From Anaeromyxobacter oryzae (GTDB lineage: Bacteria; Myxococcota; Myxococcia; Myxococcales; Anaeromyxobacteraceae), in assembly GCF_023169945.1 (NCBI RefSeq), contig NZ_AP025591.1, positions 1,572,501 to 1,636,500 on the forward strand: DNA of 64,000 nucleotides, given 5' to 3'. Each line of letters starts with the position of its first letter. Position 1 is the stretch's first letter. Positions 14,049-46,213 of this stretch are shown piece by piece. Position numbers and translations under genes: made by a program. The notes under the pieces are model-generated. The model saw only the letters and a list, made by a program, of their open reading frames with translations, made no database searches and was not told the origin of the DNA.

Positions 14049-14123
14049 GCTTGCCCCCCGGCGAGGCTAGCACGACCGACGACGGGCTGCGCGCTGCGCG
14101 AGTGGAGGGTGCGCTCGCAGCGC

Positions 14124-14211
14124 TCACCGGCTGGCCGCGTCGCGCGCGGCCTCGTGATCCTTGCCCTGCATCATCGCGTCGACGTGCCTCTGGCCGCGGA
14201 GCGCCATCTTG
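14124..14211 (-). pseudogene. 3' fragment of the small M-x-G-K-D-H repeat protein gene
   Basis: Only the last 28 codons survive: KMALRGQRHVDAMMQGKDH followed by EAARDAASR and the stop. They are nearly identical to the C-termini of the intact genes at 38687 and 46214. About 50 bases of 3' flank (from roughly 14074) also match. The homology ends abruptly just before the AAGATG, so this is a truncated third copy and not an expressed gene. Confidence 0.8.
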
Positions 14212-14325
14212 GGATCGCCTAGTCCCGCGGGTCGTGCGGCCGCGGGCGCCCCCTCCGCCCGCCCCGCGTGCTCTCGCCTCGACGGCCGTCCCGCCGCGCC
14301 CCGGCGAGCGCATCCGCCGTCCTCG

Positions 14326-15471: not shown

Positions 15472-15519
15472 CGATCTTCCTCCGAGGTGGTTGGGCGCAC
15501 GGTGCGTGCGGATGAGGCG

Positions 15520-15559
15520 CTTATCCGCAAAAACGGATGACCTGTCAAGCATGACGGAT
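15520..15559 (-). promoter_or_regulatory. metK promoter with operator in the spacer
   Basis: On the minus strand TTGACA (15548-15543) is followed after 17 bases by GATAAG (15525-15520). Within the spacer and touching the -10 box is the inverted repeat ATCCG-N6-CGGAT (15523-15538). Another ATCCGT lies just upstream of the -35 (15559-15554). The arrangement suits repression by a dimeric regulator. The same half-site recurs at 15628-15643 and near 34742-34784. Confidence 0.6.
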
Positions 15560-15627
15560 TACGGCCTCATGCGTTCGGTGAAGCCACGGCGATCACCACC
15601 CGCTGGAGGTTCGATGGAGTTTGTGCT

Positions 15628-15643
15628 GTCCGTTATAACGGAC
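15628..15643. promoter_or_regulatory. 16-bp perfect palindrome, candidate operator
   Basis: GTCCGTTATAACGGAC is a perfect palindrome with the same TCCG-N6-CGGA architecture as the metK operator 90 bases away. Its centre TATAAC could be the -10 box of the sigma-54 activator gene, so the activator may be repressed by the same regulator, or by itself. A further TCCGT half-site follows at 15649. Confidence 0.6.
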
Positions 15644-15655
15644 TACCATCCGTCC

Positions 15656-17414: not shown

Positions 17415-18662
17415 TCACCCGCGGCCCGCCCCGCTCGTCGCCGGACGCCTTCTCGCGTCCTCGAAGACCGGGAACAGCTCGTCCTGGATCCGGTACAGGT
17501 CGTGCTGGATCCCGACGGACGACGCGTTCGCGTCGTACACGTGCTCGTAGGTGATGCCGTTCCGCTTCCAGATCGTGACCAGCTTCTCCGCGAGGTCGAG
17601 GTACCAGGCCGGCTCCGGCGCGCGGTGACCGCGCAGCTCCGACCCCGGGTTCGGGCACCACACGGTGAAGGTGCCGACCACGCCCTTCGAGGCGAGCACC
17701 TCGAGCCCCTCCAGCGTCCGCGCCTTCGGCTCGATGCCGGCGACGAAGTTCGAGCGGACGCGGCCATGCCCGAAGACGCCGACGGCGTACTCCAGCGCCC
17801 GGACCCAGTGCGCCCATCCTCCCGAGCCGCGAGCCTTGCCCGGGCAGATCACCTCGTAGATCCGCTGATCCCAGATCTCGAGGTTCATGGCCGTGGTGCG
17901 GAAGCCGGCCTCCTCGAGGCGATCCAGGTTCGTGAGGTCGAGGGGCGCGGCGACGGTGGCGGTCCCGTTGAACCGCTCCTGGCCGGTCGCGGCGCGGATC
18001 GCCTCCGCGACGTCGAGGTAGTAGTCCAGCTCACGCCGCTCGGGGATCACGCCGCCCGTCACGGTGAGGTGCCGGTAGAGCCCCTCCTCGGCGGCCGCGG
18101 CGATGGTCTCGCCGATCTGGCGTGGCGTCTTCCAGTGGTTCAGCCCCTGCCGCTCCCCGAACTCGCTCTTCGTGTAGTTGATGTTGCAGAAGAGGCAGTC
18201 CTCGCCCCGGTCCTTGTACGAGCACTCGTTGCTGTAGACGACGAAGACGTGCTGGTCCGGGCTGGCGATCGCGATGGTGGACATCGGCTTCCCGTCCGAC
18301 GTCTTCCGCGAGTAGAAGCCCGGACGCGGGTGGAAGGAGATCGGGAACACCTCGTGCTCGCCGTCCGCGAGGATGAACGTGCTGCCGTCCAGGGCGATCC
18401 GGTAGCGGGAGCGCGGGTTCCAGCGGACGGGCACGTCGAGGCCGTGCGGGGTGACGAACTCGGCCGGGAGGTCGCCCTCGTGTGGCTCGAAGTCCATCAC
18501 GAACAGGCACTGGATCTGCTCCTTCACGTCGGAGCCGAGCCGGAGCGCGCGGAGCGCCTGCGGCTCGACCGCCACGCCGTCGGTGACGACGTCGGTCTTC
18601 ACGACGAGCTCGTTCCAGAGCTTCGCCTTCAGCTCCGTGATGCGGTTGGCAGTGGCGCTCAT
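17415..18662 (-). CDS. radical SAM-like protein with C-x8-C-x2-C motif (first paralogue)
   Basis: A 415-residue protein. The putative cluster motif is NEC-SYKDRGED-CLFC (Cys 147, 156, 159), a C-x8-C-x2-C spacing instead of the canonical C-x3-C-x2-C. It is followed by a radical SAM-like barrel: TVTGGVIPERRELDYYLDVAEAI resembles the GGE strand, and NGTATVAAP and GRVRSNFVAG look like later strands. An N-terminal domain of about 110 residues contains another Cys shared with the paralogue at 21222 (EQ-I/V-x-C-L-F, here Cys 52). AGGAG precedes the ATG. It is the last gene of the nitrogenase-like operon. Assignment to radical SAM is strong by overall pattern; the reaction is unknown. Confidence 0.8.
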   Translation of the reverse strand: MSATANRITELKAKLWNELVVKTDVVTDGVAVEPQALRALRLGSDVKEQIQCLFVMDFEPHEGDLPAEFVTPHGLDVPVRWNPRSRYRIALDGSTFILADGEHEVFPISFHPRPGFYSRKTSDGKPMSTIAIASPDQHVFVVYSNECSYKDRGEDCLFCNINYTKSEFGERQGLNHWKTPRQIGETIAAAAEEGLYRHLTVTGGVIPERRELDYYLDVAEAIRAATGQERFNGTATVAAPLDLTNLDRLEEAGFRTTAMNLEIWDQRIYEVICPGKARGSGGWAHWVRALEYAVGVFGHGRVRSNFVAGIEPKARTLEGLEVLASKGVVGTFTVWCPNPGSELRGHRAPEPAWYLDLAEKLVTIWKRNGITYEHVYDANASSVGIQHDLYRIQDELFPVFEDARRRPATSGAGRG

Positions 18663-18698
18663 GTCTGCTCCTGTGCGGCTGGGGCCGGGGGAAGCGGT

Positions 18699-20381
18699 TC
18701 AGACGGCGAAGCGGGTCACGGCGGACGGCCCGCGCCCCTGGGAGAGATCCACGACCTTCACCAAGCGCGGCGTCACGCGGAACAGGGCGCTGTCGCCGAG
18801 CTCGCCCTTCTCCGCCCGCTCCCTGAAGCGCGGGTTCCGCGCTCCGATGAGCTGGATGGCGCGAGCGCGCTCGCGTTCGTCCGACACGGGCTCGGCCTCG
18901 CCGCGGATCTCCACGTTGCGGAAGCTCGGCAGCTCCTGTCGGTCGTGCTGGAAGAGGACGGCGACGTGCCGGTTCACGCCGAGGTGCCGCACCTTCTCGG
19001 AGCTCCGGCTCGTGGAGAAGTAGACCGTGAGGCCGTCAGCGGCGAACGAGGCGAGCACGCGCGTCGCCGGGCCGGTCGTCTCGTCGACCGTCGAGAGGAC
19101 GATGAGAGGGGTCTCGTGCAGGTATTGCGGGATCTGGTTCTTCTCGAGCGCCATGGTTCTGCTCCTTGCTTCGTGGGGGGTGAAGGCCAGGACGAGGAAG
19201 AAGGGTACGAAGATCACGAGGACGGCGTGCGCGGGGACCGCTCGGCTCGCGAGCGCGCAGGCGAGGGGGCCGACCGTGATGCCCAGGCCGGCAGACGCCT
19301 GGAACAGGCTGGAGATCTTGCCCCGCGCCCCGCGCAGCTCGCCGAGGCGCGAGGAGACGAGGACGTGCACGAGCCCCAGGCCGACGCCGAGGACCGCGCC
19401 CGCGGCCGCGAGCGCGGCCGGTCCGGGCGCAAGCGCGGTCCCGAGCGCGCCGGCCGCGGCGATCGCCCCGGCCAGGCGCCGCAGCGCGACCCGACGGGCC
19501 GCCAGCCCGCCCGCGAGGAAGGACGTGAGGATGAAGGCCGCTCCCTCGATGACGAGGATCTGCGAGGCGGCAAGCGGGCCGGCGCCGAGCTCGCGCACGG
19601 CCACGACCACGACGAACGCGCTGAAGGCCGAGAAGCACGCCGCGCCCAGCATCTCGGCCGCGACGACGGGACGGATGGACCGCTCGCGCAGGACCGAGGC
19701 GAGCTCGGCCAGCTGATCCCGGAACCCTCGGGCCGGCGGCGCGGCGCGCGGGCCCCGGTCGTCGAGCACGAGCAGCGACACGACCACCGCGCTGAGGAGC
19801 TGCAGGGCCACGACGACGCCGAATACCGCGCGGAACCCCGCGCTCCGGGCGAGGAATCCGGCGACCAGCGGCCCGAGGAAGGTGAGGCCGATCGACATCG
19901 AGCCCTTGAACCACCCCGCCTTCTCGCGCCCGATCGTCCCCAGGCACGAGAAGAACGCCGCGTTCAGCGCCGTGAAGCGCAGCGGCCCGAGGAGCCCTTC
20001 CGTCCCCATCAGCAGGATCAGCGCGAGCGGCTTGTCGGCGAACGCGATCGCGGCAGCGACGGCGGCGCCGGCGACGCCGCCCACCCGGAACACCTTCCGC
20101 GGGCCGAAGCGATCCACCAGGAAGCCCACCGGCAGGACGAGCAGGAGCATCCCGAGTCCGGCGATCGCCCTGAGCGCGCCGATCTCCGCGTTCGTGGCCT
20201 CGAGTCGCACCGCGTGCAGCGGGACCGCGAGCTGCATCACGCCCGACGCCGTGCCCGCGAGCACGTTCAGCACGACGAACCCCGCGGCGACCGGCGTGCC
20301 GCGCGCCGCGCGTTCGGGGGCCGCGTCCGCGACGAGCGGCGCGTCGACCTCGAGGTGGAATGGCAGGGCATCGGGTTCCAT
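18699..20381 (-). CDS. MFS transporter fused to a PNPOx-like flavin-binding domain
   Basis: A 560-residue protein. Residues 1-405 are a 12-helix major facilitator (motif A-like GFLVDRFGPRKV near 105). Residues about 410-560 form a pyridoxamine-phosphate-oxidase-like split barrel (MALEKNQIPQYL, then ATRVLASFAADGLTVYFSTS and VNRHVAVLFQHDRQELPSFRNV). The junction has an in-frame ATG at 19154 preceded by a near-perfect AAGGAG 8 bases upstream. The flavin domain may therefore also be made alone, or two genes may have fused by loss of a stop. It is in the nitrogenase-like operon, 55 bases after the SDR gene. The MFS half is homologous to the divergent gene at 31915. Confidence 0.8.
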   Translation of the reverse strand: MEPDALPFHLEVDAPLVADAAPERAARGTPVAAGFVVLNVLAGTASGVMQLAVPLHAVRLEATNAEIGALRAIAGLGMLLLVLPVGFLVDRFGPRKVFRVGGVAGAAVAAAIAFADKPLALILLMGTEGLLGPLRFTALNAAFFSCLGTIGREKAGWFKGSMSIGLTFLGPLVAGFLARSAGFRAVFGVVVALQLLSAVVVSLLVLDDRGPRAAPPARGFRDQLAELASVLRERSIRPVVAAEMLGAACFSAFSAFVVVVAVRELGAGPLAASQILVIEGAAFILTSFLAGGLAARRVALRRLAGAIAAAGALGTALAPGPAALAAAGAVLGVGLGLVHVLVSSRLGELRGARGKISSLFQASAGLGITVGPLACALASRAVPAHAVLVIFVPFFLVLAFTPHEARSRTMALEKNQIPQYLHETPLIVLSTVDETTGPATRVLASFAADGLTVYFSTSRSSEKVRHLGVNRHVAVLFQHDRQELPSFRNVEIRGEAEPVSDERERARAIQLIGARNPRFRERAEKGELGDSALFRVTPRLVKVVDLSQGRGPSAVTRFAV

Positions 20382-20436
20382 GACCGTCGTGCGGAGGCCC
20401 TCGCGCTCCCGCGGTAGCGGGCCGCGGTCGCCTCGC

Positions 20437-21225
20437 TCAGGCCTCCAGGGGTCGGCCGCCGATGACGAACCCGCCGCCCGAGACGTCGAGCCGGGCTCCG
20501 GTGACGAACGAGGCCTCGTCCGAGAGGAGCCACACGATGGGGCGCGCCACCTCCTCGGCCGTCGCGATCCGGTTCGCCGGGATCGTGGCGGCGATCGCGG
20601 CGAGCGCCGCCGGATCGTCGGTCACGCGGCGGGTCATCGCGGTGTCGGTGAAGCCCGGTCGGACGGCGTTCACGCGGATGCCGCGCGCCGCCACCTCCTT
20701 CGCGAGCCCGACCGTGAAGGTGTCCACTGCCGCCTTCGACGCGGCGTAGGCGGACGCGCCCGGCCGGCCGCCGATGGTGGCCGCCATCGAGGACACGTTC
20801 ACGATCGCGCCGGCACCGCTCCGGGAGAACCGGGCCACCGCCTCGCGGCTGGCGATGATCGTGCCGGTGACGTTGGTCGCCCAGAGCGCCGCCAGATCCT
20901 CGCCGGTGAAGGTGCCCACCGGCCCGTGCCGCCCCCCGATCCCGGCGCTGTTCACGAGGCCGGCGAGCGGCCGCCCCGGGAAGCGCGCGTCCACCTCGGC
21001 GAACAGCCGGACCACGTCCCCCTCCTTCGCCACGTCCGCGGCGAGCGCGTGGGCCTCGCCGCCCGCGTCCCGGAGCTCCGCGACCAGCGCCGCGGCTGCC
21101 GCCTGCTGCGACCGGTAGGTGATGACGACCGGCCAGCCCCGGGCCACCGACAGCCGCGCCACGGCCGCGCCGATCCCGCTCGAGCCACCCGTCACGAGGA
21201 TCGGGCCGGACGTGCGCGCGGTCAC
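20437..21225 (-). CDS. short-chain dehydrogenase/reductase
   Basis: A 262-residue classical SDR: cofactor loop TGGSSGIG (residues about 12-19), NSAG motif, catalytic Ser (NVSSMAA), and YAASK with catalytic Tyr and Lys. The arrangement after strand 2 (TYRSQQ) points to NADP(H). The start is a GTG at 21225 that overlaps the TGA of the preceding radical SAM gene (GTGA), so translation is coupled. It presumably oxidises or reduces an alcohol/ketone group of the substrate, product or cofactor handled by the nitrogenase-like system. Confidence 0.85.
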   Translation of the reverse strand: MTARTSGPILVTGGSSGIGAAVARLSVARGWPVVITYRSQQAAAAALVAELRDAGGEAHALAADVAKEGDVVRLFAEVDARFPGRPLAGLVNSAGIGGRHGPVGTFTGEDLAALWATNVTGTIIASREAVARFSRSGAGAIVNVSSMAATIGGRPGASAYAASKAAVDTFTVGLAKEVAARGIRVNAVRPGFTDTAMTRRVTDDPAALAAIAATIPANRIATAEEVARPIVWLLSDEASFVTGARLDVSGGGFVIGGRPLEA

Positions 21226-22451
21226 GGGCGCACCTCCGTCGCCGGCCGCACCGTCCCGGTCGCCTGGGCCTTTCGTGGTGCGGGGAGCCGCCCCTCCTCG
21301 ATGCGGTAGATGTCGTGGACGAGGGTGGTCGGCGCCGCGTTCGCGTCGTAGATCTGGTCCCAGGTGAAGCCGACCTTCCGGTAGAGGGCGACGGTCTTTC
21401 TCGCGACGTCGAGGTGCCACTCCGGCTCCGGTGACCGATGCCCCTCGAGCGCCGAGCCGGGGTTCGGGAACCACGCCGGGGAGATCGCGATGATCCCCTT
21501 CGCCGTCAGCGCCTCGATCCCTTCCAGCGTCGACTGCTTGCTCTCGAGCCCGCCCACCATGTTCGAGCGCACCCGGCCGCGACCGAACACGCCGACGGCG
21601 TGCTCGAGCGCCGCGATCCAGTGCTTCTGGCCGCCGCACAGCTGCTCCTTGCCGGGGCAGTACGCCCGGAAGAAGTGCTCGTTCCAGACCTCGATGTTGA
21701 TCGCGAGGGTGCGGTAGCCGACCTCCTTGTACTTCTCGATGATGCTGAGGTCCTGCGGCGCGCCGATGCAGGCGGTGCCGTTGAAGTCCTCGAGGCCGGT
21801 CTGCTCCTTGATGCTCTCGGCGACGTCCAGGTAGTAGTCCACCTCGCGCCGCTCCGGGACGAAGCCCCCGCTGATCGTGAGGTGGCGCGCGCCCTCGGCG
21901 TACGCCGCGGCGATCGTCTCGCCGATCTGGCGCGGGTACTTCCACCGGACCCCTTCGGCGTCGCCGTAGGTGTCGCGGGTCGCGTTGATGTTGCAGAAGA
22001 GGCAGTCCTTGCCGGTGGACTTGAGCGAGCATTCGTTGCTGTAGGCGACGAACACGACGCCGTCGGTGTTGTGCACCGCGACGGTCCGCATCTGCGTGCC
22101 GTCCGAGGTCTCCTGGCGGTAGTAACGGGGCCGCTTCGCGAACTCGACCGGAATGGCCTCGCCGTCGCGGCGCACGAGGAAGAAGCGCTTGCCGTCGCGC
22201 TCGAGCCGGTTCGGCGACCGGCGGTTGTAGTTGAAGAGCGCGACGAGCCCGTGCGGCAGGACGAGGTACGGGGGCAGCTCGAGGCCGACGTGCGTGTCGG
22301 TGTCGTACTCGAAGAGGCAGTGGACCTGCTCCTGGTGCTCTCCGCCCACGTCGGCGTGGTCGAAGATCGCGGGGTCGAAGGTGATGCCCTCCTGGCTGAC
22401 GTGGGCCTTCAGCTCGAGCTCGCGGTACTGCGCTTCCTTCAGGCTGGACAT
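21222..22451 (-). CDS. radical SAM-like protein with C-x8-C-x2-C motif (second paralogue)
   Basis: A 409-residue paralogue of the protein at 17415. The cluster motif is NEC-SLKSTGKD-CLFC (Cys 141, 150, 153), followed by the same barrel-like segments (SGGFVPERREVDYYLDVAESI, NGTACIGAP, GRVRSNMVGG). The N-terminal EQVHCLF cysteine (Cys 45) is shared. GAGGAG lies 8 bases before the ATG. It follows the K-like subunit by 12 bases and overlaps the SDR gene. Two paralogues in one operon suggest two steps of a cofactor assembly or substrate modification pathway, or a heterodimer. Spacing C-x8-C-x2-C is conserved in both, so it is not a sequencing error. Confidence 0.82.
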   Translation of the reverse strand: MSSLKEAQYRELELKAHVSQEGITFDPAIFDHADVGGEHQEQVHCLFEYDTDTHVGLELPPYLVLPHGLVALFNYNRRSPNRLERDGKRFFLVRRDGEAIPVEFAKRPRYYRQETSDGTQMRTVAVHNTDGVVFVAYSNECSLKSTGKDCLFCNINATRDTYGDAEGVRWKYPRQIGETIAAAYAEGARHLTISGGFVPERREVDYYLDVAESIKEQTGLEDFNGTACIGAPQDLSIIEKYKEVGYRTLAINIEVWNEHFFRAYCPGKEQLCGGQKHWIAALEHAVGVFGRGRVRSNMVGGLESKQSTLEGIEALTAKGIIAISPAWFPNPGSALEGHRSPEPEWHLDVARKTVALYRKVGFTWDQIYDANAAPTTLVHDIYRIEEGRLPAPRKAQATGTVRPATEVRP

Positions 22452-22463
22452 GGACGTTGCTCC

Positions 22464-23870
22464 TCAGGCGTGGGGGACGTGGACGACTTCGAGCGCCGGC
22501 GGCCCGTGCCGCCGGTGCAGTTCGGGTTCGTGCAGCGCGGCCGCCGGGGCGCCGCGCGCACCGGGCTCGCTCCGGGCGCGCCGCACGGCCGACAGGATGC
22601 TCTCGACGAGGTGGAGGGCGCCGTCGACGCCGGCGTGGCTCCGCCGGAGCACCGCCGAGGCGCGCAGCGGCGCCGCGGTCTCGACGTGCGCGGCGCCGAG
22701 CTCGCGGGCGACCGCCGCCTCGAGGGCGCTGCCGAGCACCAGCTCAGGCGCGGCGGCGCGCAGCTCGGCCTCGATCTCGCGCCGGCTCGCCAGGAACGCG
22801 ACCGCGGCTCCGGGACCGGCGACGGCCTGCACCGCCTCGAGGATCGACGCGCGGCGCTCGGCGGGCGGCTCGTCGGTGACGATCACGCGCTCGACCTGCT
22901 GCCCGAGGGTGCCGGCGAGGAACCGCGCCTGCCCCACGGCGCCCGCGGTGCCTCCCACGACCGCGACGCGCTCCAGCACGTCGCCGAGGAGCAGGCTCGC
23001 GCTCGCCCGGCTCAGGAAGTGGCGCAGCCTGCGGTCGAGCCCCGCGCGCGCCGCCTCGACGGCGGAGGGATCGAGCCCGAGCGCCTGGGCGATCCGCTCC
23101 AGGAGGAGACCCGCGTCCCGGCTGCCGACCGGGACCCAGCCGAGATCGACCACCGGCGTGCCATTCCGATCCGCGAGGAGCTCGGCGGCCGCGTGGCCCC
23201 AGGGCGAGAGCACCACGTTCACTCGTGCCCGCGGCGCCTGCCGCCACGCGGTGAGCCCCTGGTCCAGGCCGACGAGGCGGTTCGTCTGCAGGCCGAGCTC
23301 GCCCAGGACGGCCTCGAGCTCGAGGAGGTCGCCGTCCCAGGTCGGATCCTGGCCCGGCACCACGCCGAGGAGGTTCACGTCGGGAGCGGGCCCGCGGGCG
23401 TCGTCGGGGAAGAGCCCGGGCAGCTGGTCCAGCAGCGATCGCGCCGCCGCGGCGGCGCCGCTCCAGCCGTGCCCCTTGAACCCGGGGGTCGCGATGCCGA
23501 GCACCGGGAAGCGCTGATCACGCGCCTCCTTCACCATGGCCGGAACATCGTCGCCGACGATCTCGGGAACGCAGCCGGTGACGACGACGTACACCTCGCC
23601 GTCCTGCACCTTGACGGTGTTCTTGATCTGCTCGCGCAGGCGCGCCGTGCCGCCGAAGACGACCTGCTTCTCCTGCAGCACGGTGGCGCTGAGCTCCTGG
23701 GTGCCCGTCGAGAGCTCGCCGTGTCCGCCCGCGAACGCCTCGGTCGACGTCCGGGCCCCGACGCCGCACCCCGGGCTCGCGTGCAGGACGGGCACGATGC
23801 CAGCGACGGCCTCGAGCAGGCGCAGCGCACCGTGCAGCGCGCAGCCGCTGCGATCCTCGTGAATGGGCAT
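22464..23870 (-). CDS. nitrogenase-like component 1 subunit with three cluster cysteines
   Basis: A 468-residue NifD/NifK superfamily protein. Three cysteines occupy the P-cluster positions: Cys 10 (SGCALHG), Cys 35 (HASPGCG) and Cys 100 (VTGCVPEIVGDD); spacings 25 and 65 resemble NifD (26 and 66). The VVFGGTARLREQI helix and the GDD after the third Cys are classic. The segment that holds the FeMo-cofactor Cys275 in NifD reads NVVLSPWGHAAAELL here, with no Cys. With the partner subunit's single Cys this would give four ligands for one [4Fe-4S] cluster, as in COR. It begins 2 bases after the D-like gene, with GAGG inside that gene's end. Confidence 0.85.
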   Translation of the reverse strand: MPIHEDRSGCALHGALRLLEAVAGIVPVLHASPGCGVGARTSTEAFAGGHGELSTGTQELSATVLQEKQVVFGGTARLREQIKNTVKVQDGEVYVVVTGCVPEIVGDDVPAMVKEARDQRFPVLGIATPGFKGHGWSGAAAAARSLLDQLPGLFPDDARGPAPDVNLLGVVPGQDPTWDGDLLELEAVLGELGLQTNRLVGLDQGLTAWRQAPRARVNVVLSPWGHAAAELLADRNGTPVVDLGWVPVGSRDAGLLLERIAQALGLDPSAVEAARAGLDRRLRHFLSRASASLLLGDVLERVAVVGGTAGAVGQARFLAGTLGQQVERVIVTDEPPAERRASILEAVQAVAGPGAAVAFLASRREIEAELRAAAPELVLGSALEAAVARELGAAHVETAAPLRASAVLRRSHAGVDGALHLVESILSAVRRARSEPGARGAPAAALHEPELHRRHGPPALEVVHVPHA

Positions 23871-23872
23871 CG

Positions 23873-25279
23873 TCACTTCACCTCGTGCTTGATGAACCAG
23901 TGGGTGCTCTTCGAGAGCCAGCCGGCGGCGTAGCTCCCCTCCCCGCCGTCGGCGAGGAACCGCGCGAAGCCGGGATTCGCGAGCCGTCGTGCGATGGCCG
24001 CCGCGACCCGCTCCACGCCGGCGTAGCCGAGGAGCGGCACGCGCTGCAGATCGAGGACGGGGATGCCGAGCCGGAGCGCGTGAACCGCGGCATTCCCACG
24101 CGTGATGCAGAGCGCCGGCCGCAGGGATCGCAGCAGGTTCACCTCCTCGAAGGCCTGCCCCTCCCCGACCAGCACCGGGAGGTCGGGCTGGCCCGCCGCG
24201 AGCTCCTTCAGGCGCGAGAGGTGGCGCGGCCCGACGGACGGGACCGAGAGCCCGGACAGCGAGAGCCCCAGCTCTCGCAGGAGCTCGGCCGCGGCGAGCG
24301 CGGCGGACGCCGGCAGGTTCACGAACACCCGCGCGCCCGCGTGACGCGCCAGGCTCGCGCGCACCCCCGCGAGCGCGCGGGCGTGCCGCGCCGCGACCGC
24401 CGCCGCCTGCGCCTCCTGGCCCGTGGCCGCGCCGATCCGCGCCAGCCACCGCGTCGTGCCCGAGATCCCGACGGGCGGCGGCGACTCGAGGTACGGGACA
24501 CCGCGCAGCTGCCGGAGCGCCTCCCCGGCGTACTCCGACTCGTCGGGGTCGATCGAGACCGACAGGCGCGCGTGCACCGCCTCGCCGAGGCTCGCCACCG
24601 GCGCGTGGCGCGGGAACGACCCGGCGGCCACGCCGACCTCGCCGATCAGCGCGCGGAGGTGGGCCAGCTCCTCCTGGCCCTCGGCGAGCGCGATCAGGTT
24701 CACGTGATCACCGGCGCCGCCGTGCCGGTGCGGGAGCAGGTGCTTCACCAGGGCGTGCACCGTCACGTCGTGCCCGGTGCTGCCGAGCTTCGAGCGGAAG
24801 CCGTCCGTGTACACGGGCGCGATGGGGACGTTCAGCTCCTCGCGCAGCTCGGCCGCCACGGACTCCAGATCGTCGTTGTTGATCGCCACCACGGGGGTCG
24901 CGAGGACGGCGATCGCCCGCGGCGCATGCTCCCGGCGCAGGCGGAGGATGGCGTCGCGCAGCTTCGCGTCGCCGCCCATGATCGAGTCGCGCTGGGTGAG
25001 CCCGGTGACGATCCAGGGGGTCGCCGGCCCGTCGGCGTGCAGGGTCGCTGCGCAGCCCGCCGGGCCGTGGATCACGAGGCCCAGGCCCTCGATGGTGCGG
25101 AGGAGGTCGAGGGCACGCTGGAGATCGCTCGGGCGGTCCTGGGCGAAGGTGCGGACACGCTGGGCGAGCCCAGCCTCCCCCTCGCGCGCCAGGGCGCCGA
25201 TCGCGCCGGCGAAGGCTCCGATGTCGCCGGTACGCTTCTCGCGGACGGGGGCGGTGCGCTGCTGGATCGAGATGGTCAT
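23873..25279 (-). CDS. nitrogenase-like component 1 subunit with one cluster cysteine
   Basis: A 468-residue NifD/NifK superfamily protein. Only the middle P-cluster cysteine remains (HGPAGCAA, Cys 76). The first is absent, and the third position reads VLATPVVAINNDD, with Thr 128 where nitrogenases have Cys. TQRDSIMGGDAKLRDAI is the typical NifD-like helix. Near the C-terminus the region equivalent to NifD His442 reads ALCITRGNAAVHALRLGIPVL with no matching His, so a FeMo-type cofactor could not be bound in the usual way. GGAGAGGG precedes the ATG at 25279. It lies between the H-like gene and the three-Cys subunit. Confidence 0.85.
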   Translation of the reverse strand: MTISIQQRTAPVREKRTGDIGAFAGAIGALAREGEAGLAQRVRTFAQDRPSDLQRALDLLRTIEGLGLVIHGPAGCAATLHADGPATPWIVTGLTQRDSIMGGDAKLRDAILRLRREHAPRAIAVLATPVVAINNDDLESVAAELREELNVPIAPVYTDGFRSKLGSTGHDVTVHALVKHLLPHRHGGAGDHVNLIALAEGQEELAHLRALIGEVGVAAGSFPRHAPVASLGEAVHARLSVSIDPDESEYAGEALRQLRGVPYLESPPPVGISGTTRWLARIGAATGQEAQAAAVAARHARALAGVRASLARHAGARVFVNLPASAALAAAELLRELGLSLSGLSVPSVGPRHLSRLKELAAGQPDLPVLVGEGQAFEEVNLLRSLRPALCITRGNAAVHALRLGIPVLDLQRVPLLGYAGVERVAAAIARRLANPGFARFLADGGEGSYAAGWLSKSTHWFIKHEVK

Positions 25280-25293
25280 GTTGCCCTCTCCGC

Positions 25294-26169
25294 TCAGATC
25301 CCCGCGGCCTTCGCCGCGACGATGCCCTGCTCGCTCTCGAGGAGGACGTTCCCCCACTTGCGGGCCCAGGCGCGCAGGTCGTTCACCGCGAGCGGTCTCG
25401 GGATCACCGCGGTGGTGTCGGCGAGCACCTTGCTCGCGAGCTGGCGATAGACGTCGGCCTGGGGCGAGCGCGGGCTCGCCTCGATGACGGTCTGGCCGCA
25501 CAGCTCGGCCTGCGCGACGGTGGTGGATCGGGGGACGTACTGGACGGCCCGCGTCCCCGTCGTCTCGGCGAAGTCGTCGATGAGCGATCGGGCGTACGGC
25601 TGGGAGATGCTGTTGGCGATGATGCCGCCCAGCCTCGCCCCGCCCGACGGCGCGTACTTGGCGATGGCGCGGAAGAGGTTGTTGGCGGCGTAGATGGCCA
25701 TGAAGTCGGCCGACGACACGACGTACACGCGGTCCGTCAGGCCCTCGCGGATGGGCACCGCGAAACCGCCGCAGACGACGTCGCCGAGGACGTCGTAGAG
25801 GACGACGTCGGGCTTGAACTCCTCGAAGAGGCGGAGCTCGCGGAGGAGCTCGATCGCCGCGTTGATGCCCCGCCCCGCGCAGCCCACGCCCGGCACGGGA
25901 CCGCCCGCCTCGATGCAGAGGACCCCGCCGAAGCCGACGCGGGAGACGTCCGACAGCTGGATCCTCCCGCCGTCGCGCGTCGCGTCGAGCACGGTGGGCA
26001 GGTAGGTGCCTCCGCGCAGCGTGCTCGTGGAGTCGCTCTTCGGATCGCAGCCGATCTGGATGACGCGGCGCCCGGCGTCGGCGAGCGCCGCCGCGAGGTT
26101 GGAGGTGGTGGTGGACTTGCCGATGCCACCCTTTCCGTAGATGGCGATGTGCTGCGGTCGGTCGGTCAT
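25294..26169 (-). CDS. NifH/BchL-family ATP-dependent reductase
   Basis: A 291-residue iron protein. The P-loop is GKGGIGKST (residues 12-20), the switch I region is CDPKSDST, and the two [4Fe-4S] ligand cysteines are at 97 (GVGCAGRG) and 133 (VVCGGFA), almost exactly the NifH positions 97 and 132. It therefore should form a homodimer with one bridging cluster and deliver single electrons to the component-1 subunits at the cost of ATP. AGGAAAG precedes the ATG. It is downstream of the ABC transporter ATPase (53 bases) and 14 bases before the D-like gene. Sequence details cannot assign it to N2 fixation; no nifB, nifE or nifN is in the window. Confidence 0.92.
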
Positions 26170-26222
26170 TTGCGCGTCTTTCCTGGCGGTGGAGGGGCGT
26201 CGGGTCCGGGCCGGATCCGGGC

Positions 26223-27041
26223 TCAGATCTCGAACTCGATGTCGGACTCCGCGGCCGTGAAGAACTCGCCGTAGATCCGCTTGCGGACCGAGACGAACGC
26301 GCCGGAGCTGCGGTCGCGCGGGCGCGGCAGATCGACGTGGACGAGCTTGCGGATCGTCCCGGGGCGGTTCGACATGACGGCGACCCGGTCCCCGAGATAG
26401 ACCGCCTCGTCGATGTCATGGGTGACGAGGACGACGGTGGACCGCTCCACCTCCCAGATCCGGAGCAGCTCCTGCTGCATCTGGATCCTGGTGAGGGCGT
26501 CGAGCGCGCCGAATGGCTCGTCGAGCAGGAGGACCCGGGGCTTGTTCACGAGCACCCGGGCGATCGCGGCGCGCTGGGCCATGCCGCCCGAGAGCTGGTG
26601 GGGGTAGGCCTTCTCGAACCCGGAGAGCCCGACGACCTCGATGGCCTCGGCGATCCGCCTGCGTGCCTCCGCCTTCGGGAGCCGGCCGAGGGCGAAGCCG
26701 ACGTTCCGCTCGACCGTGAGCCACGGCAGGAGCCGGCTGTCCTGGAACATGATGCCCCGCTCCAGCGAGGGTCCGCTGATCGGAGCGCCGTCCACGGTGA
26801 CGGTGCCGGCGTCGTTCCGCTCGAGCCCCGCCACGATCCGGAGGAAAGTGCTCTTGCCGCAGCCGCTGCCGCCGATGATCGAGAGGAACTCACCGGGCCG
26901 GACGTCGACGTCCACGCCTCGCAGCGCGACGACCTCGTTCCCGTTCGCGTTGAAGCTCTTCCCGATGCCGGTGGCCTTGATGGGTGGCGCCTCGGGGGCG
27001 GCGGATTGGAGAACGCGGCGGGCGATGGTCGTGGTGGTCAT
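26223..27041 (-). CDS. ABC transporter ATPase, SsuB/TauB/NrtD type
   Basis: A 272-residue ATPase. Walker A is GGSGCGKST (residues about 58-66), the Q-loop is [13 protein letters not shown], the signature is [15 protein letters not shown], Walker B is [12 protein letters not shown], and the H-loop is [16 protein letters not shown] and [10 protein letters not shown] are typical of the sulfonate/taurine/nitrate subfamily. It is the energy subunit for the two permeases and the periplasmic binding protein encoded just upstream and sits immediately before the nitrogenase-like HDK genes, so the imported compound is likely the substrate or a precursor. Confidence 0.9.
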
Positions 27042-27068
27042 GGGGCAGGCTCCTGGGGCGCGCCGTCC

Positions 27069-27866
27069 TCAGGCGCTCGTCGCCGGACGCGCGGGGCGCC
27101 AGCGGAGGACGTGGCGCTCGACCGCGCCGATCGCGGTGGTCAGGCCGAAGCCGATGAGCCCGTTCACCGCGATGCCCACCAGCACGAGGTCCATCCGGCC
27201 GAGGGCGCGGCCTTCGATGAGGGTGCGGGACGCGCCGGGGGCGATCTGGAGGAAGAACTCCGCCCCGAACGTCGCCAGCCACGCGGTGACGAGGGCGAGG
27301 TGCAGGCCGGTGAGGATCTGCGGCGCAGCGTACGGAAGGAGGAGCCCGGTGACGAACTTCAGGCGCCCGAGCTCCAGGACACGCGCGAGCTCGACGTGCT
27401 CGCGCGGCAGGGCATGCACGCCCTCGAAGGTGTTGATCACCACGGGGGTCACCGCCGCCACGGCGACGAAGGCGATCTTGGTGGACTCGCCGCCGCCGAA
27501 CCAGGCGGAGAGGAGCGGGATCCAGGCGAACACCGCGACCTGGCGGTACGCGTGAAAGCTCGGGCCGACGAGGCGATCGGCCCAGCGCGACACGCCGAGG
27601 ACCGTCCCGAGGATCACGCCTGCGGCCGCAGCGAGCGTGAAGCCGCACGCGGTGCGGCCGAGGCTCGCGGCGACGCCGGACCAGAAGTTCGGCACCGTGA
27701 GCTCCGTCCATGCGGTCCTCGCGACGAGCGCGGGCGAGGGCACGAGGTCCGGGTTCACGAGGCGCGCGCTGCTCGCGACGGACCACGCGGCGATGACGAC
27801 GAGCGGCAGCGCCAGCGCTCGGCGGTCCTGCAGGGGAAGCGCGACGGCACGGGATACGGTGGCCAT
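27069..27866 (-). CDS. ABC transporter permease, SsuC/TauC type (second)
   Basis: A 265-residue permease with six helices. The ATPase-contact EAA loop reads HVELARVLELGRLKFVTGLLLPYAAPQILTG in part, typical of the BPD_transp_1 family. The start at 27866 is 11 bases after the stop of the first permease gene. The two permeases are only distantly similar, so the transporter is probably a heterodimer, unlike SsuC or TauC homodimers. Confidence 0.85.
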   Translation of the reverse strand: MATVSRAVALPLQDRRALALPLVVIAAWSVASSARLVNPDLVPSPALVARTAWTELTVPNFWSGVAASLGRTACGFTLAAAAGVILGTVLGVSRWADRLVGPSFHAYRQVAVFAWIPLLSAWFGGGESTKIAFVAVAAVTPVVINTFEGVHALPREHVELARVLELGRLKFVTGLLLPYAAPQILTGLHLALVTAWLATFGAEFFLQIAPGASRTLIEGRALGRMDLVLVGIAVNGLIGFGLTTAIGAVERHVLRWRPARPATSA

Positions 27867-27877
27867 GGTCGGTCTCC

Positions 27878-28765
27878 TCAGAACGCCGCCCGGTGCCACC
27901 GGCGAAGGCGGCGCTCCAGGCCGGACAGCACGAGGTCGAGGGAGAGCCCGACGAGGCCGATGACGACGATGGCTGCGAGCACCACGTCGAGCTGGAAGAG
28001 CTGGCGCCCCCAGACCACCATGAACCCGACCCCCTCGCTCGACGCCACGAGCTCGACGACGACGAGGGACATCCAGGCCGCGCCGAGGCCGCTCCGGACC
28101 CCGGTGAACAAGGACGGCAGCGCGGCCGGGATCACGATCCGCGACACCACCTCGCCGCGCCCGAGCTGGGAGACGCGCGCGAGCTCGAACCACTTGCAGG
28201 GGATCCCGGCGATGCCCTGCATCGTGTTGATGGTGACCGGCAGCGCCGTAGACCAGGTGATCACCGCGGTCTTGAGCGGCTCGTCGATCCCGAACACCAG
28301 GATGAGCAGCGGGATCCACGCGAGGACGTTCACCTGGTACATGGACATGAAGGTGGGCCGCACGTACGCCCGGAACGTCGTCGACAGGCCCAGCGTGCCC
28401 CCGACGAGGAGCCCGCTCGCGGTGCCGATCGCGAAGCCCTTCGCGACGCGGACGGCGCTCACATGCAGGTTGGCCAGGATCGTCCCGTCCGCCCACAGCC
28501 CGCGGAACGTCTCGAGGACCACCGCGGGCGGCGGCAGCACGAGGGTCGAGACCCACTCCCGATCCGCCGAGAGCTGCCACAGCCCGAGCAACATCGCGGG
28601 AACCACCGCCGCCGCCCCGACCGCGACGGCACGCGGCGCCACAGCCCTGAAGACCGTAGCGAGCGCGTGAGGCCCGGCGCCCGCACTCGGCGCGCGCGGC
28701 TCCTCGCCACGGGATGGCGTGACCTCTCGATCGAGGAGTGCGCTGGCGGTGAGGTCGGAGAACAT
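27878..28765 (-). CDS. ABC transporter permease, SsuC/TauC type (first)
   Basis: A 295-residue permease with an N-terminal polar extension of about 45 residues, then six helices. The EAA loop (FELARVSQLGRGEVVSRIVIPAALPSLFTGVR) is canonical in form. AWIPLLILVFGID and the C-terminal LSLDLVLSGLERRLRRW are typical of the nitrate/sulfonate/taurine group. It lies 71 bases downstream of the binding-protein gene and 11 before the second permease. Confidence 0.87.
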   Translation of the reverse strand: MFSDLTASALLDREVTPSRGEEPRAPSAGAGPHALATVFRAVAPRAVAVGAAAVVPAMLLGLWQLSADREWVSTLVLPPPAVVLETFRGLWADGTILANLHVSAVRVAKGFAIGTASGLLVGGTLGLSTTFRAYVRPTFMSMYQVNVLAWIPLLILVFGIDEPLKTAVITWSTALPVTINTMQGIAGIPCKWFELARVSQLGRGEVVSRIVIPAALPSLFTGVRSGLGAAWMSLVVVELVASSEGVGFMVVWGRQLFQLDVVLAAIVVIGLVGLSLDLVLSGLERRLRRWHRAAF

Positions 28766-28836
28766 GATCGCTCCCTTTTCCGGCTTCGAGTCGACGTGGA
28801 GGGTGGAGGGCCGGGCGTGCGGCGCGTCGGCGGCGC

Positions 28837-29928
28837 TCAGCGGGCGGCCGCCGACGCCCCCGTGGGCGGCGCCTTCGGCTTGCCGTCGGAGTCCAGCTCG
28901 CGCCAGACGCGCGCGAGGTTCAGCTCCGCGAGTCCGCGGTTCAGGTACGTCGCGTCGAGCCACTGGTCGACGTCGAAGTCCTTGCGGACGAGCCGCAGCC
29001 CGCGCGCCGCGTCGAGGAGGCGCCGGTACTGGACACGAAAGAACTCGTCGAGCAGCGGCGACGCGCGGTCGCGCAGCACGAAGGAGTCCCAGTCGCCCTT
29101 CCAGGCCGGCAGGCCGAACCCGCTCTTGGTCCAGATCTGGTAGGCCCGCGCGCGGTTCGCCTCGTCCGCGAGCCATGCAGCGTCGCGTAGGACGGAGTTC
29201 ACGACCCGCTGCACGACGGCGGGGTAGCGCGCCGCGAACTCCTCGGTGACGAGGAGGTGGCTCACGCGGCCCAGCCTGGGGTCGCCCTGCGTCGAGTAGA
29301 CGATGCGCGCGACACCGCGCTCCACGAGCGGGAAGACGTCGGACCCGGAGACCTGGGCGTCGATGTCCTTCGACAGCAGCGCCGCGTTGCCGTCGTTCGT
29401 GGACATGTTGATCAGCTTGAACTCCGAGTCCTTCAGCGACTTGCTCTCGAGCACCCGGTACAGCGCGAGCTGGAGGTTCGTCCCCTTGAACACCGCCACC
29501 CGCTTCCCCTTGAGGTCCTCGAGCGTACGGGCCGGCGAGTCGGCGGGGACCGCCACGTAGGTCGGCTCGAACCGCGTGTGCGCGAGGATCACCTTCGTGC
29601 GCAGGCCGCCGGCGCGGGCCACGAGGGACGGCAGGTCACCCTCGAACGCAAAGTCGAGCTGGCCGTTCGCCAGCGCCTCGTTCACCGCCGGGCCGGCGCC
29701 GGAGAAGTAGATCCACCTCACCTCGATGCCGTCCGGCTTGAGCTCGTTCTCGAGCGAGCCGTTCGCTGCGACGACGGAGGAGTACGACCAGCCCGAGACG
29801 GGACGGCCGCCGGTTCCCACCGCGGCGACGCCGATCCGGACGACCGTCGGCCGGTCCGCGGCAGGCGCGACGTCGGGCGCGGCGATGGATAGGAGCGTGA
29901 GGACGAGAGCCAGGATGCTGGTGCGCAT
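28837..29928 (-). CDS. periplasmic substrate-binding protein, SsuA/NMT1-like
   Basis: A 363-residue protein with a signal peptide (residues 1-24, cut near APAADR). The NMT1/THI5-like fold is visible: RIGVAAVGTGG at strand 1, NGQLDFAFEGDLP, the hinge DLKGKRVAVFKGTNLQLAL and DIDAQVSGSDVFPLV. These proteins bind aliphatic sulfonates, taurine, nitrate or thiamin precursors. No ligand-specific residues can be assigned by eye. GGAGG lies about 12 bases before the ATG. The gene follows the porin gene by 40 bases, so outer-membrane, periplasmic and inner-membrane uptake steps are encoded in order. Confidence 0.87.
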   Translation of the reverse strand: MRTSILALVLTLLSIAAPDVAPAADRPTVVRIGVAAVGTGGRPVSGWSYSSVVAANGSLENELKPDGIEVRWIYFSGAGPAVNEALANGQLDFAFEGDLPSLVARAGGLRTKVILAHTRFEPTYVAVPADSPARTLEDLKGKRVAVFKGTNLQLALYRVLESKSLKDSEFKLINMSTNDGNAALLSKDIDAQVSGSDVFPLVERGVARIVYSTQGDPRLGRVSHLLVTEEFAARYPAVVQRVVNSVLRDAAWLADEANRARAYQIWTKSGFGLPAWKGDWDSFVLRDRASPLLDEFFRVQYRRLLDAARGLRLVRKDFDVDQWLDATYLNRGLAELNLARVWRELDSDGKPKAPPTGASAAAR

Positions 29929-29968
29929 GGGTGTGGTGTTCCTCCGGAGCGAGGGGGGTGGTGTCGCG

Positions 29969-31468
29969 CTAGAAGCCGAACTGGAGCTGGAGCAGCACTT
30001 CCGCGGACTTGTCGTTCTCGGCCGCGACGACGTGCTGGATGCGCCGGTTCACGTTGAGCTGTGCCTTGGTCGTCTCCGCGAAGAAGACGTTCAGGCCGGC
30101 GGTGTAGACCTCGTTGGCGGAGCCGGGGGTCCGGTCGTCGGCCTCCCAGCGGTCGTACCGGACGAAGGGCTGGAAGGTCTTCGGCCACCAGTCGTCGAAC
30201 TTGCCCTGCGTCTTGATGCTCCGCAGGAATTGCTCGCCGAAGCTGTAGAAGGCGGTGACGGTGTGGCCGGCGCGATCGAAGGTCCCGACCTGGGCGGCCG
30301 AGGTATCCGTCCTCGCCTGCGTGACGACCTTCTCTCGGGCGCGGACGTACTCGTACGTCAGGCCGAACGGGAAGTGGCTGTAGTAGACGTCGAGGCCGAA
30401 GCGGTTCTTGGCGCCCGTTCCGAGGATCGCCGGCGTCTTGTAGCCGTCGTTCAGCGTGGCGCGGCCGATGTACGCCGACGCCCCCACGCGCAGCTCGCGG
30501 AGCCACGAGTTGTACTCGGCGGGCACCGTGAAGGCGACGCGCCCGACGATGTCCTTGAACGCGTTCTCGTCCCCGCGGTTGGGACCGTTGCCGTTCACGA
30601 TCCCGAGCGCGACCGCGAGGGCCGCCTGCCGGTAGTTGTAGCCGAAGTCGTACTGCGAGAAGAACTCGGCGCGCGCGATGAGCCCGATCTGCCGTGCGCC
30701 CAGGCCGGTCTGGCCGACGAACAGCGCGTTGTTGATGACCGGCTTCAGCTCCTCGGTGGTGTTCGACTCGAGGCCGAAGGGGAGCAGCTGCTGGCCGAGG
30801 GTGAACGAGAGCCGATCGCCGTCGTTCTCGATCGTCGGCAGGGCCTGGTAGGCGACGTTCGCGTCGAGCAGCGACAGGAAGTTCGTGTTCGCGCCGGCGG
30901 AGGGGACCGCGTTCACGCCCACGCTGAAGCCGAGGTTCCGCGCCTGCTCGTAGTCGCGGTAGAGCAGGCCGTTGAAGGCGACGATCGCGGCGGGAACGTC
31001 GAAGGACGTCCTCCGGTTCTCGAGCAGCGCCGGGTTGTTGACGGACGTGTTCGCGATGCTCGACGGCACCGGCGAGGTGATGTCCCGCGAGTAGTACGAG
31101 GTGCGGGCCTGGACCGTCCCGGAGATGGTCAGGTTCCGGTTGCTGAGCGCGCTCTTCGTCTCGCGGTCCCGCTGGACCTGGTACTTGAAGTTCTCGAGGT
31201 CGGCCTGGACGCCCTGGACGTCGGCGCGCGTGGGCGTCTCACCCGAGCCCGGGTCGAGACGCGCCTCGAGCAGCGCGACGGTCTTCTCGAGCGCGTCGAG
31301 CTCGGAGCGCAGGTCCGCCGGCCTGGGCTCGGGCGGTGTCAGGACCGCCGGCGTCGTCGACACCTGCGCCACCGCCGGACGCGCAGACGCGGGCGCGGAA
31401 GGGCCTTCGGCGCTGGCGCGCCCGACCAGCAGGAAGGTCGCGAGCGTGAGTGCGGCGCGTCGAATCAT
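29969..31468 (-). CDS. outer-membrane porin with N-terminal coiled coil
   Basis: A 499-residue protein: signal peptide (residues 1-20, cut after RASA), a Pro/Ala linker, a short coiled coil (LRSELDALEKTVALLEARL) and then a beta-barrel of alternating residues ending in the outer-membrane signature LLQLQFGF. The coiled coil probably packs against peptidoglycan or trimerises the porin, as in OprP/OprO-like or DcaP-like channels. The ATG at 31468 is chosen because the signal peptide follows; the 29-codon extension is not credible. It is the first gene of the operon and probably admits the same anionic substrate as the ABC transporter. Confidence 0.85.
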   Translation of the reverse strand: MIRRAALTLATFLLVGRASAEGPSAPASARPAVAQVSTTPAVLTPPEPRPADLRSELDALEKTVALLEARLDPGSGETPTRADVQGVQADLENFKYQVQRDRETKSALSNRNLTISGTVQARTSYYSRDITSPVPSSIANTSVNNPALLENRRTSFDVPAAIVAFNGLLYRDYEQARNLGFSVGVNAVPSAGANTNFLSLLDANVAYQALPTIENDGDRLSFTLGQQLLPFGLESNTTEELKPVINNALFVGQTGLGARQIGLIARAEFFSQYDFGYNYRQAALAVALGIVNGNGPNRGDENAFKDIVGRVAFTVPAEYNSWLRELRVGASAYIGRATLNDGYKTPAILGTGAKNRFGLDVYYSHFPFGLTYEYVRAREKVVTQARTDTSAAQVGTFDRAGHTVTAFYSFGEQFLRSIKTQGKFDDWWPKTFQPFVRYDRWEADDRTPGSANEVYTAGLNVFFAETTKAQLNVNRRIQHVVAAENDKSAEVLLQLQFGF

Positions 31469-31914
31469 GTGCGGTGCTCCCGGCGTCGAGAAGGTTTGCC
31501 TGCGCGTCGCCTCGCCCCTTCTGCAACGCGCGTGCGCAGGGCTCGCGTACGGCACGCCGACGCTTCACCTACCGGCAGTCACGACCGAAGGCGGGGGACG
31601 CATGTCCGCCATTACAGACGGGCTCGCCGCCCCAGCCTGCGGAGCTGCGCTCACGGGCGCGCGGGGGGCTCGACGCGCCGACATCGCGTGGAGCTCTCGC
31701 CGTCGGCCTCGGGCGGGTCACGGGTGATCCCAGCTGCCGTCACGGGCGCCCAGCACCGGTCACGGCCGGGCGACACGCGTCCACGCCACGAGACGAGCCG
31801 AGGTTCGCACCCCCGAGCCCGCGAGGCGCTTCCCCAGCTGGACGGATCGTCGCCTCCACGGTCCTTCGACGCGTCTCGTCTCTCGCTGGTACCGCGCGTG
31901 CACCGGCCGCCCGC
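31469..31914. other. divergent regulatory region of the nitrogenase-like operon
   Basis: The 446 bases separate the porin gene (minus) and the MFS gene (plus). The porin side holds a candidate sigma-54 promoter at 31522-31537. The rest has no credible gene; short open frames are compositional. I found no strong palindrome in it. Confidence 0.5.
31522..31537 (-). promoter_or_regulatory. candidate sigma-54 promoter of the nitrogenase-like operon
   Basis: On the minus strand GCGCACGCGCGTTGCA has a consensus -12 element (TTGCA) and CACG of the -24 element at correct spacing, but CG replaces the invariant GG. Initiation would be near 31512, about 44 bases before the porin ATG. The nearest sigma-54 activator gene (15656) converges on the far end of this operon. 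Alternatively a weaker site with GG lies at about 31498-31513. Confidence 0.4.
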
Positions 31915-34784: not shown

Positions 34785-34849
34785 GCAGTCGATCATGCGC
34801 TCTGCTGCTCCGCGATACGACGCGCGCTCACGACGGGTGAAGTGTACCT

Positions 34850-34899
34850 GTCGCCGGCCGGCGCCTCCCGCGCGAATGCGCGGCTGAGCCGCCGGCGAC
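34850..34899 (+). promoter_or_regulatory. nested hairpin in the 5' leader of the YeiH operon
   Basis: The outer stem GTCGCCGGC (34850-34858) pairs perfectly with GCCGGCGAC (34891-34899). Inside it CCGCGC-GAAT-GCGCGG (34868-34883) forms a second stem. The structure lies about 65 bases after the predicted start of transcription and 75 before the ATG at 34974. It may be an attenuator or RNA sensor; no known riboswitch class was recognised. Confidence 0.35.
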
Positions 34900-34973
34900 C
34901 GCAGCGCCCGAGCCCGTCGCGTTCCCTCCACACCGCACCGTGCGGCGCACGCGCGCCGCTGCAGGAGAGCTGC

Positions 34974-46144: not shown

Positions 46145-46213
46145 CTGAAGGGGAGCCAGCGCCGACCGACGACGGGCTGCGCGCTGCTGGACCGGGGGGT
46201 TTCCTCGCAGCGC

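Follow-up and report, generated by a model that had tools for sequence, protein, structure and literature searches.

What does a nitrogenase-like operon do in a genome that carries a nif locus elsewhere, and how is the work divided between its nitrogenase-like subunits and its radical S-adenosylmethionine (SAM) enzymes? The question is posed by positions 17415-31468 of a 64,000-nucleotide stretch of Anaeromyxobacter oryzae DNA (contig NZ_AP025591.1, positions 1,572,501 to 1,636,500; hereafter the window), where twelve genes, all on the minus strand, encode among others NifH-, NifD- and NifK-like proteins (H, D and K, together HDK) and two radical SAM enzymes (RS1 and RS2). Every sequence feature tested places the operon in the isethionate reductase (Isr) family. 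Its HDK and both radical SAM partners, with a predicted porin and an SsuABC-like importer, probably import organic sulfonates and likely release sulfite from them by breaking the C-S bond, each partner likely setting the sulfonate that is used. A sharper division of labour, which we find quite possible and put forward tentatively, is that the IsrB-type radical SAM enzymes choose and cut the sulfonate and plug interchangeably, up to eight of them, into one HDK that provides electrons at the cost of ATP, a dedicated SAM synthetase supplying their SAM.

The Isr system has been known since 2024, when HDK, the radical SAM protein IsrB and the importer SsuCAB of Rhodobacter capsulatus were each reported to be required for anaerobic growth on isethionate, and IsrBHDK together with SsuCAB to confer such growth on R. 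sphaeroides (PMC11423573). The release of sulfite was deduced there from the ability of a known isethionate lyase to substitute for DK. In the open-licence literature (bioRxiv excluded) this is the only study of the family that we found, and no statement was found there on one HDK serving several IsrB paralogues or on a link to metK, the SAM synthetase gene. Both patterns go beyond the available text of PMC11423573, the main text of which does not mention metK.

Gene organisation of the operon

In reading order the genes encode the porin, a periplasmic binding protein, two permeases and an ATPase of the ATP-binding cassette (ABC) type, H, D, K, RS1, a short-chain dehydrogenase/reductase (SDR), a major facilitator superfamily (MFS) transporter fused to a PNPOx-like domain, and RS2. 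The comparison genome in the list is L005, an independent Myxococcales metagenome-assembled genome (MAG).

29969..31468, minus strand: predicted outer-membrane porin of 499 aa (signal-peptide-like start, C-terminal Phe, 61% identical gene at the same position in L005)
28837..29928, minus strand: SsuA-like periplasmic binding protein (NCBIfam SsuA_fam, 139 bits, below the cut-off of 163.5; PDB 3uif)
27878..28765, minus strand: ABC permease 1 (Pfam BPD_transp_1; start corrected)
27069..27866, minus strand: ABC permease 2 (Pfam BPD_transp_1; start corrected)
26223..27041, minus strand: SsuB-like ABC ATPase (Pfam ABC_tran; 78% identical in L005)
25294..26169, minus strand: IsrH, NifH-like ATP-dependent reductase (Pfam Fer4_NifH, 318 bits; Cys97 and Cys133)
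23873..25279, minus strand: IsrD, NifD-like subunit (Pfam Oxidored_nitro; matches R. capsulatus IsrD; IsrD clade)
22464..23870, minus strand: IsrK, NifK-like subunit (Pfam Oxidored_nitro; Cys10, Cys35 and Cys100)
21222..22451, minus strand: RS1, second Isr-type radical SAM enzyme, an IsrB paralogue (NCBIfam NF045502, 460 bits; separate clade)
20437..21225, minus strand: SDR oxidoreductase whose GTG start overlaps the RS1 stop (Pfam adh_short_C2)
18699..20381, minus strand: MFS transporter fused to a PNPOx-like flavin-binding domain (Pfam MFS_1 and PNPOx_N)
17415..18662, minus strand: RS2, radical SAM enzyme and IsrB orthologue (NCBIfam NF045502, 429 bits; IsrB clade)

Neighbouring genes are separated by 71, 55, 53, 40, 36, 27, 14, 12, 11 and 2 bases, and RS1 and the SDR gene overlap by four. 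A previous sequence-only reading had listed the same twelve minus-strand genes, and the list stands, with 71 bases as the largest gap. Pfam or NCBIfam matches back eleven of the twelve; the exception is the porin, which had no Pfam match at E<=0.001 and no NCBIfam match (tested with a longer start). The same reading had found no nifB, nifE or nifN in the cluster, and indeed none lies inside the operon. The genome, a single 6.72-Mb contig, nonetheless has a separate nif locus at 5.536-5.542 Mb, with H at 5535482 and four more component-1 matches up to 5542143, two of these four within one 941-aa frame. The nitrogenase-like operon is therefore a second system.

A search for D in 146 relatives from the same order, family and genus (eight of them from the genus) found it in the window's genome alone, so that the conservation of gene order was judged in L005. 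This genome is collinear with the window from the porin through RS1, a run of nine genes with identities of 82% for H, 59% for D, 61% for K and 82-83% for RS1, which places the gene order beyond chance. Where the window has its SDR gene, L005 has its second radical SAM gene, which belongs to a third clade, and metK and a sigma-54 activator gene stand directly ahead of the porin.

The HDK proteins belong to the isethionate reductase family

The gene set had been thought to match no characterised family, a view that the phylogeny of D overturns. In a tree of 59 D-type rows, the 32 IsrD rows lie on one side of a branch with an SH-aLRT (approximate likelihood ratio test) support of 99, apart from MarD-like, other nitrogenase-like, NifE and NifD candidate rows. 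The split received 100/100 on a reduced set of 34 rows, which left out four of the 32 IsrD, 14 of the 20 other nitrogenase-like and all NifD and NifE rows. The MarD label itself rests on a 912-bit match to PDB 9fmg, whose molecule is named only 'Nitrogenase' and which we take to be MarD. Window D is 37% identical over 429 aa (E 1e-56) to the R. capsulatus protein P0142, an oxidoreductase by its source name, which is taken as IsrD because its single cysteine is Cys74, as published (PMC11423573).

The cysteines of all three subunits match the published Isr pattern, which supports membership. At the column of NifD Cys154 the IsrD rows carry Pro (29/32) or Ser (3/32), and at that of Cys275 only one of the 32 has Cys, whereas Cys fills both columns in all 27 other rows. 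The two residues are Pro and Asp in window D and Cys in six of six MarD-like rows. The Cys88 column is Cys in 31 of 32 IsrD rows (Cys76 in the window); the Cys62 column is Arg in all 32 and also in 10 of 14 other nitrogenase-like rows, and hence is not diagnostic. In K, Cys10, Cys35 and Cys100 recur in 79, 78 and 79 of 80 aligned rows, respectively, and both cysteines of H in 75 of 75. Scores against models of other families stay far below their cut-offs: 57 bits for NifD (cut-off 654), at most 39 for NifK (427), 325 for CfbC on H (402), and for the DPOR, COR and CfbCD models likewise, for example 82.8 against 490 bits for DPOR_BchB. Equivalents of Cys275 and His442, the ligands of the iron-molybdenum cofactor (FeMo-co), are absent from window D. 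Since DK has ligands for one four-cysteine site and no ligand columns for a large cluster, NifB-like maturation is not called for; the 2024 paper likewise argued against it, for FeMo-co (PMC11423573).

Within the IsrD clade, window D groups with rows from L005, Myxococcota, Fibrobacterota and Thiodictyon. Forcing it together with alphaproteobacterial IsrD was rejected by the approximately unbiased (AU) test (p 0.0003); the groups tested in this way, here and in the radical SAM trees, were named after a first tree had been viewed.

Other nitrogenase-like genes occur in some genomes. The Rhodopseudomonas genome of locus L074 has two Mar-type DK pairs (L113, 2184-5105 and 15259-18187) about 30 kb or less from its isr genes, and genome G199 has three more group IV D-type genes within 20 kb (L114), which fall apart from both MarD and IsrD in the tree.

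Two deeply different radical SAM partners

RS1 and RS2 score 460 and 429 bits against NCBIfam NF045502 ('variant_rSAM'; cut-off 125) and are the only two proteins of the genome above that cut-off. They share 48% identity. RS2 is 57% identical over 393 aa to R. capsulatus IsrB (P0189, called a radical SAM protein of R. capsulatus by its source), and RS1 50%. RS2 lies in the clade of R. capsulatus IsrB with a support of 99 in two trees and 98/93 in a third, the reduced trees holding 42 and 30 of the 109 radical SAM rows. RS1 falls into a different clade, with the 82-83% identical L005 gene and genes of Bacteroidota. Constraining RS2 with RS1 was rejected (AU p 2e-5), as was constraining it with the second radical SAM gene of L005 (AU p 4e-44). 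The kin of RS2 are alphaproteobacterial IsrB proteins, unlike the kin of window D; given this mismatch and the different second gene of L005, radical SAM partners seem to have been exchanged between HDK lineages.

The usual radical SAM motif is CX3CX2C. The family of RS1 and RS2 has CX8CX2C, and the three cysteines are present in 105 of 106 aligned relatives. Five basic residues of RS1 (Lys171, Arg201, Arg202, Lys268 and Arg339) are kept in at least 95% of the 106 rows and could, as a guess, hold the sulfonate group. No solved relatives of RS1 were found by sequence at E<=0.001. Its AlphaFold2 model has a pLDDT of 91.8, and fold searches returned general radical SAM barrels alone (lipoyl synthase, HydE, MqnE, BioB and NifB), which gives no mechanism.

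Myxococcota radical SAM genes of more than 330 bits in genomes without IsrD (G192, G104 and G030) were considered and rejected as Isr-type: two were placed in the tree, outside the Isr-type clade, and the third (L109, 106 bits against RS1) was left out of it. In G004, a genome of the same genus without IsrD, a second-tier NF045502 gene (187 bits) adjoins genes for an SsuA-like protein, an ABC ATPase and a permease (L112, 5792-10212); this arrangement would be consistent with HDK-independent action of a radical SAM enzyme on a sulfonate. In the isr loci L010 (2309-3550), L021 (1446-2711) and L061 (1637-2887), the Isr-type gene is joined by a weak radical SAM relative (103-113 bits) placed between the SsuA-like gene and the permeases.

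One HDK, up to eight radical SAM genes

A scan of a contig collection with the D alignment yielded 117 relatives, of which the best 80 were kept as loci; L001-L004 are excluded from all locus tables. Whole-genome counts cover 49 genomes, 30 of the 80 loci (mostly shorter ones) and L077 having been left out. A gene was counted as Isr-type radical SAM at 330 bits or more (next score 223) and as IsrD at 380 bits or more (next score 331, in a different clade).

All 49 genomes have at least one Isr-type radical SAM gene (102 in total), and 28 have two to eight. At a threshold of 400 bits there are 82 such genes, and 22 of 42 genomes have two or more. IsrD is single in 48 of the 49 genomes; G208 has two, and the halves found on two contigs of G241 were counted once. 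Long arrays occur in two Chlorobiaceae MAGs (L046 and L051), where a single HDK is accompanied in each fetched locus by six complete, adjoining Isr-type radical SAM genes, the genome of L051 holding eight. Four of the six paralogues pair as orthologs between the two arrays (support 98-100; 86-92% identity), so the copies predate the split of the two and stayed distinct.

The recurrent extra metK

Beside the operon lies a further gene for SAM synthesis:

14326..15552, minus strand: extra divergent metK, SAM synthetase (TIGR01034, 475 bits, over the cut-off; true start likely near 15471)

A second metK is found elsewhere in the genome, at 3119104, and each of eight same-genus genomes shows one. 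Across the sample metK is present in 41 of the 80 isr loci, and in 31 of the 49 genomes the distance from a metK to IsrD or to an Isr-type radical SAM gene is at most 15 kb. At least two metK genes occur in 30 of these 31 genomes versus one of the 18 others (Fisher p 5e-11 with no correction for kinship, a value that overstates the association because the genomes, among them many Pseudobutyrivibrio and Chlorobiaceae, are not independent). By comparison, 16 loci around other nitrogenase-like genes, 3.7 to 20 kb long, contained no metK. A metK tree with 39 copies from isr loci and 29 others requires six changes of this label, at least three of them being forced by well-supported branches, although several long branches, the window's foremost, leave single placements unsure. 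On the strength of these changes metK was likely recruited to isr loci repeatedly.

A proposed route from sulfonate to sulfite

The binding protein has as its best solved relative the sulfonate-binding SsuA (PDB 3uif, E 8e-45), and its Pfam matches include phosphonate-binding and NMT1. By family the importer would be of the sulfonate type; this assignment, the 3uif match and Isr membership together point to sulfonates as the substrate. A sulfonate would thus enter through the porin and then the importer. The H dimer would use ATP to pass low-potential electrons to the single four-cysteine cluster site predicted in DK from its conserved cysteines. RS2, as a member of the R. capsulatus IsrB clade, likely handles isethionate, and RS1 likely a different sulfonate. 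In either case the radical SAM enzyme would make a substrate radical that loses sulfite, and HDK would deliver electrons either to that enzyme or to the radical left as product. Methionine would be turned back into SAM by the extra MetK, and the released sulfite would enter sulfur assimilation. The cluster likely lets the cell obtain sulfur from organic sulfonates without oxygen.

The combination of one HDK with several radical SAM partners, the exchange of partners and the recurrent extra metK is what would be expected if the sulfonate were handled by the radical SAM enzyme, at the cost of SAM in each turn, and HDK were a common electron source. The three patterns are observed, and they favour, without proving, the chemistry that we infer from them.

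Three suggestions of the sequence-only reading gain weight here. It had proposed that the operon imports an anionic sulfur compound and reduces it with ATP and low-potential electrons, which agrees with the 3uif match and with the need for relatives of H, D, K and RS2 in growth on isethionate (PMC11423573). It had made its case depend on HDK being accompanied in other genomes by the flanking transporter and radical SAM genes: among the 66 loci of at least 13 kb, the fetched stretch includes an Isr-type radical SAM gene in 58, and such a gene plus at least one transporter piece in 54. Its use of the neighbouring metK as a pointer to sulfur proved a good lead, given the metK frequency among isr loci.

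Several observations weigh against assigning the cutting to the radical SAM enzymes. Apart from the kinship among the sampled genomes, metK was not near isr genes in any sampled Chlorobiaceae or alphaproteobacteria, and in two Chlorobiaceae MAGs, including the one that carries eight radical SAM genes, no metK was found anywhere; the extra metK could instead serve general sulfur or methionine metabolism. Eight of the 66 long loci have no Isr-type radical SAM gene in the fetched stretch. The number of radical SAM genes is uncorrelated with that of SsuB-like ATPase genes (Spearman 0.17, p 0.25, n=47 loci of at least 20 kb). The genetics, as reported in the available text of PMC11423573, are compatible with either role of IsrB.

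That other role is the strongest competitor: the radical SAM enzyme would be a maturase or activator of HDK, like NifB or an activating enzyme, HDK would itself be the substrate-specific sulfonate reductase, and each paralogue would serve to build or reset it under its own set of conditions. We regard this as rather unlikely. D lacks the cluster ligands of the NifB type, as its Cys275 column illustrates (non-Cys in 31 of 32 IsrD rows, Cys in 27 of 27 others), and neither RS1 nor RS2 matches a NifB model at E<=0.001. Up to eight radical SAM genes share a single IsrD, and the ortholog pairing of four of six Chlorobiaceae paralogues indicates that they were kept apart.

It is improbable that the same architecture acts on an imported compound other than a sulfonate, such as another organic anion. 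The importer family is broad, the SsuA score lies under the family cut-off, phosphonate-binding and NMT1 matches occur too, and the sulfonate reading gives no part to the SDR and the flavin-binding fusion; against this stand the 3uif match, the place of RS2 within the IsrB clade and the recurrence of SsuABC-like pieces alongside HDK. A thioether reductase of the methylthio-alkane reductase type, scavenging methylthio compounds, has in its favour the nearby metK and that MarD is the nearest solved relative of D (9fmg, E 2.5e-40), but is highly improbable, as D does not join MarD and the other group IV proteins in their clade and departs from MarD at both the Cys154 and Cys275 columns, and the genes for the importer and the partners are those of sulfonate and Isr systems.

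If HDK indeed powers interchangeable IsrB-type cutters, a nitrogenase relative would act as the common power unit of a radical enzyme family, a new working mode in the superfamily. The multiplicity of radical SAM genes, the mismatch of trees and the recurrent extra metK predict sulfonates other than isethionate. If the model holds, the sulfonates used anaerobically in guts, in sediments and by green sulfur bacteria would extend beyond isethionate.

Acquisition and genomic surroundings

In five same-genus genomes the similarity to the window begins at the stop codon of a pyridoxal phosphate (PLP)-enzyme gene, at 33262/33263, and does not extend to the operon side. This border and the restriction of D to one genome suggest that the cluster was likely gained by transfer; metK and two flanking plus-strand genes, listed below, probably belong to it. 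The search for plasmid-borne copies gave a single record for D (27% identity over 60% of the query) and none for RS2.

15593..17347, plus strand: sigma-54-dependent activator (Pfam Sigma54_activat; a 43% identical gene adjoins metK in L005; start uncertain)
31450..33168, plus strand: MFS transporter (Pfam MFS_1; start uncertain, MFS domain from about 31960)

The activator presumably acts on this operon. A sigma-54 promoter above the porin was sought and rejected, consensus matches being at chance level (40 observed, 41.8 expected), and no riboswitch or other Rfam family reached the gathering score within the window. The second MFS protein shares 32% identity with the MFS portion of the fusion, and nine isr loci contain MFS genes that match it. 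For the SDR, no match favoured a sulfonate enzyme over other SDRs; SDR genes of at least 200 bits occur in six of the 80 loci, each time among isr genes.

Further out, a 300-base direct repeat occurs in three copies (14029-14328, 38592-38891 and 46119-46418; 63-100% identical to the reference), the leftmost just past the 3' end of metK. The gene at 36596-38431 encodes a NirA-family reductase of the siroheme type (264 bits, below the cut-off), for which nitrite and sulfite reductase are indistinguishable. A Cons_hypoth698 membrane protein (34842-36308), 87-88% identical in two same-genus loci, may be what the sequence-only reading called a sulfate exporter.

Comparison with known systems

With NifHDK and NifEN the operon shares common ancestry and the ATP-driven delivery of electrons by H, but window D has no FeMo-co ligand columns and one conserved cysteine only. 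The glycyl radical isethionate sulfite-lyase IslAB, which also takes a radical route from isethionate to sulfite, is a model for the proposed chemistry; it is an unrelated protein family without a nitrogenase-like part (PMC11423573). MarBHDK likewise combines a nitrogenase-like HDK with a radical SAM gene, and the known Mar enzyme cleaves C-S bonds reductively (PMC12552129; PDB 9fmg). It differs in that MarD retains the Cys columns for large clusters and forms a separate clade, and in that MarB carries NifB motifs (PMC12552129), whereas RS1 and RS2 belong to NF045502. The closest counterpart is IsrBHDK-SsuCAB of R. capsulatus, with which the window shares the HDK clade, the cysteine pattern, an IsrB orthologue (RS2) and an SsuABC-type importer, a porin and metabolic genes lying close by in both. 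Unlike that system, the window has two deeply different IsrB-type enzymes for its one HDK, two permeases, an SDR gene and an MFS-PNPOx fusion between the radical SAM genes, an extra metK and a gene for a sigma-54 activator next to the operon, and a D subunit from another branch of the IsrD tree.

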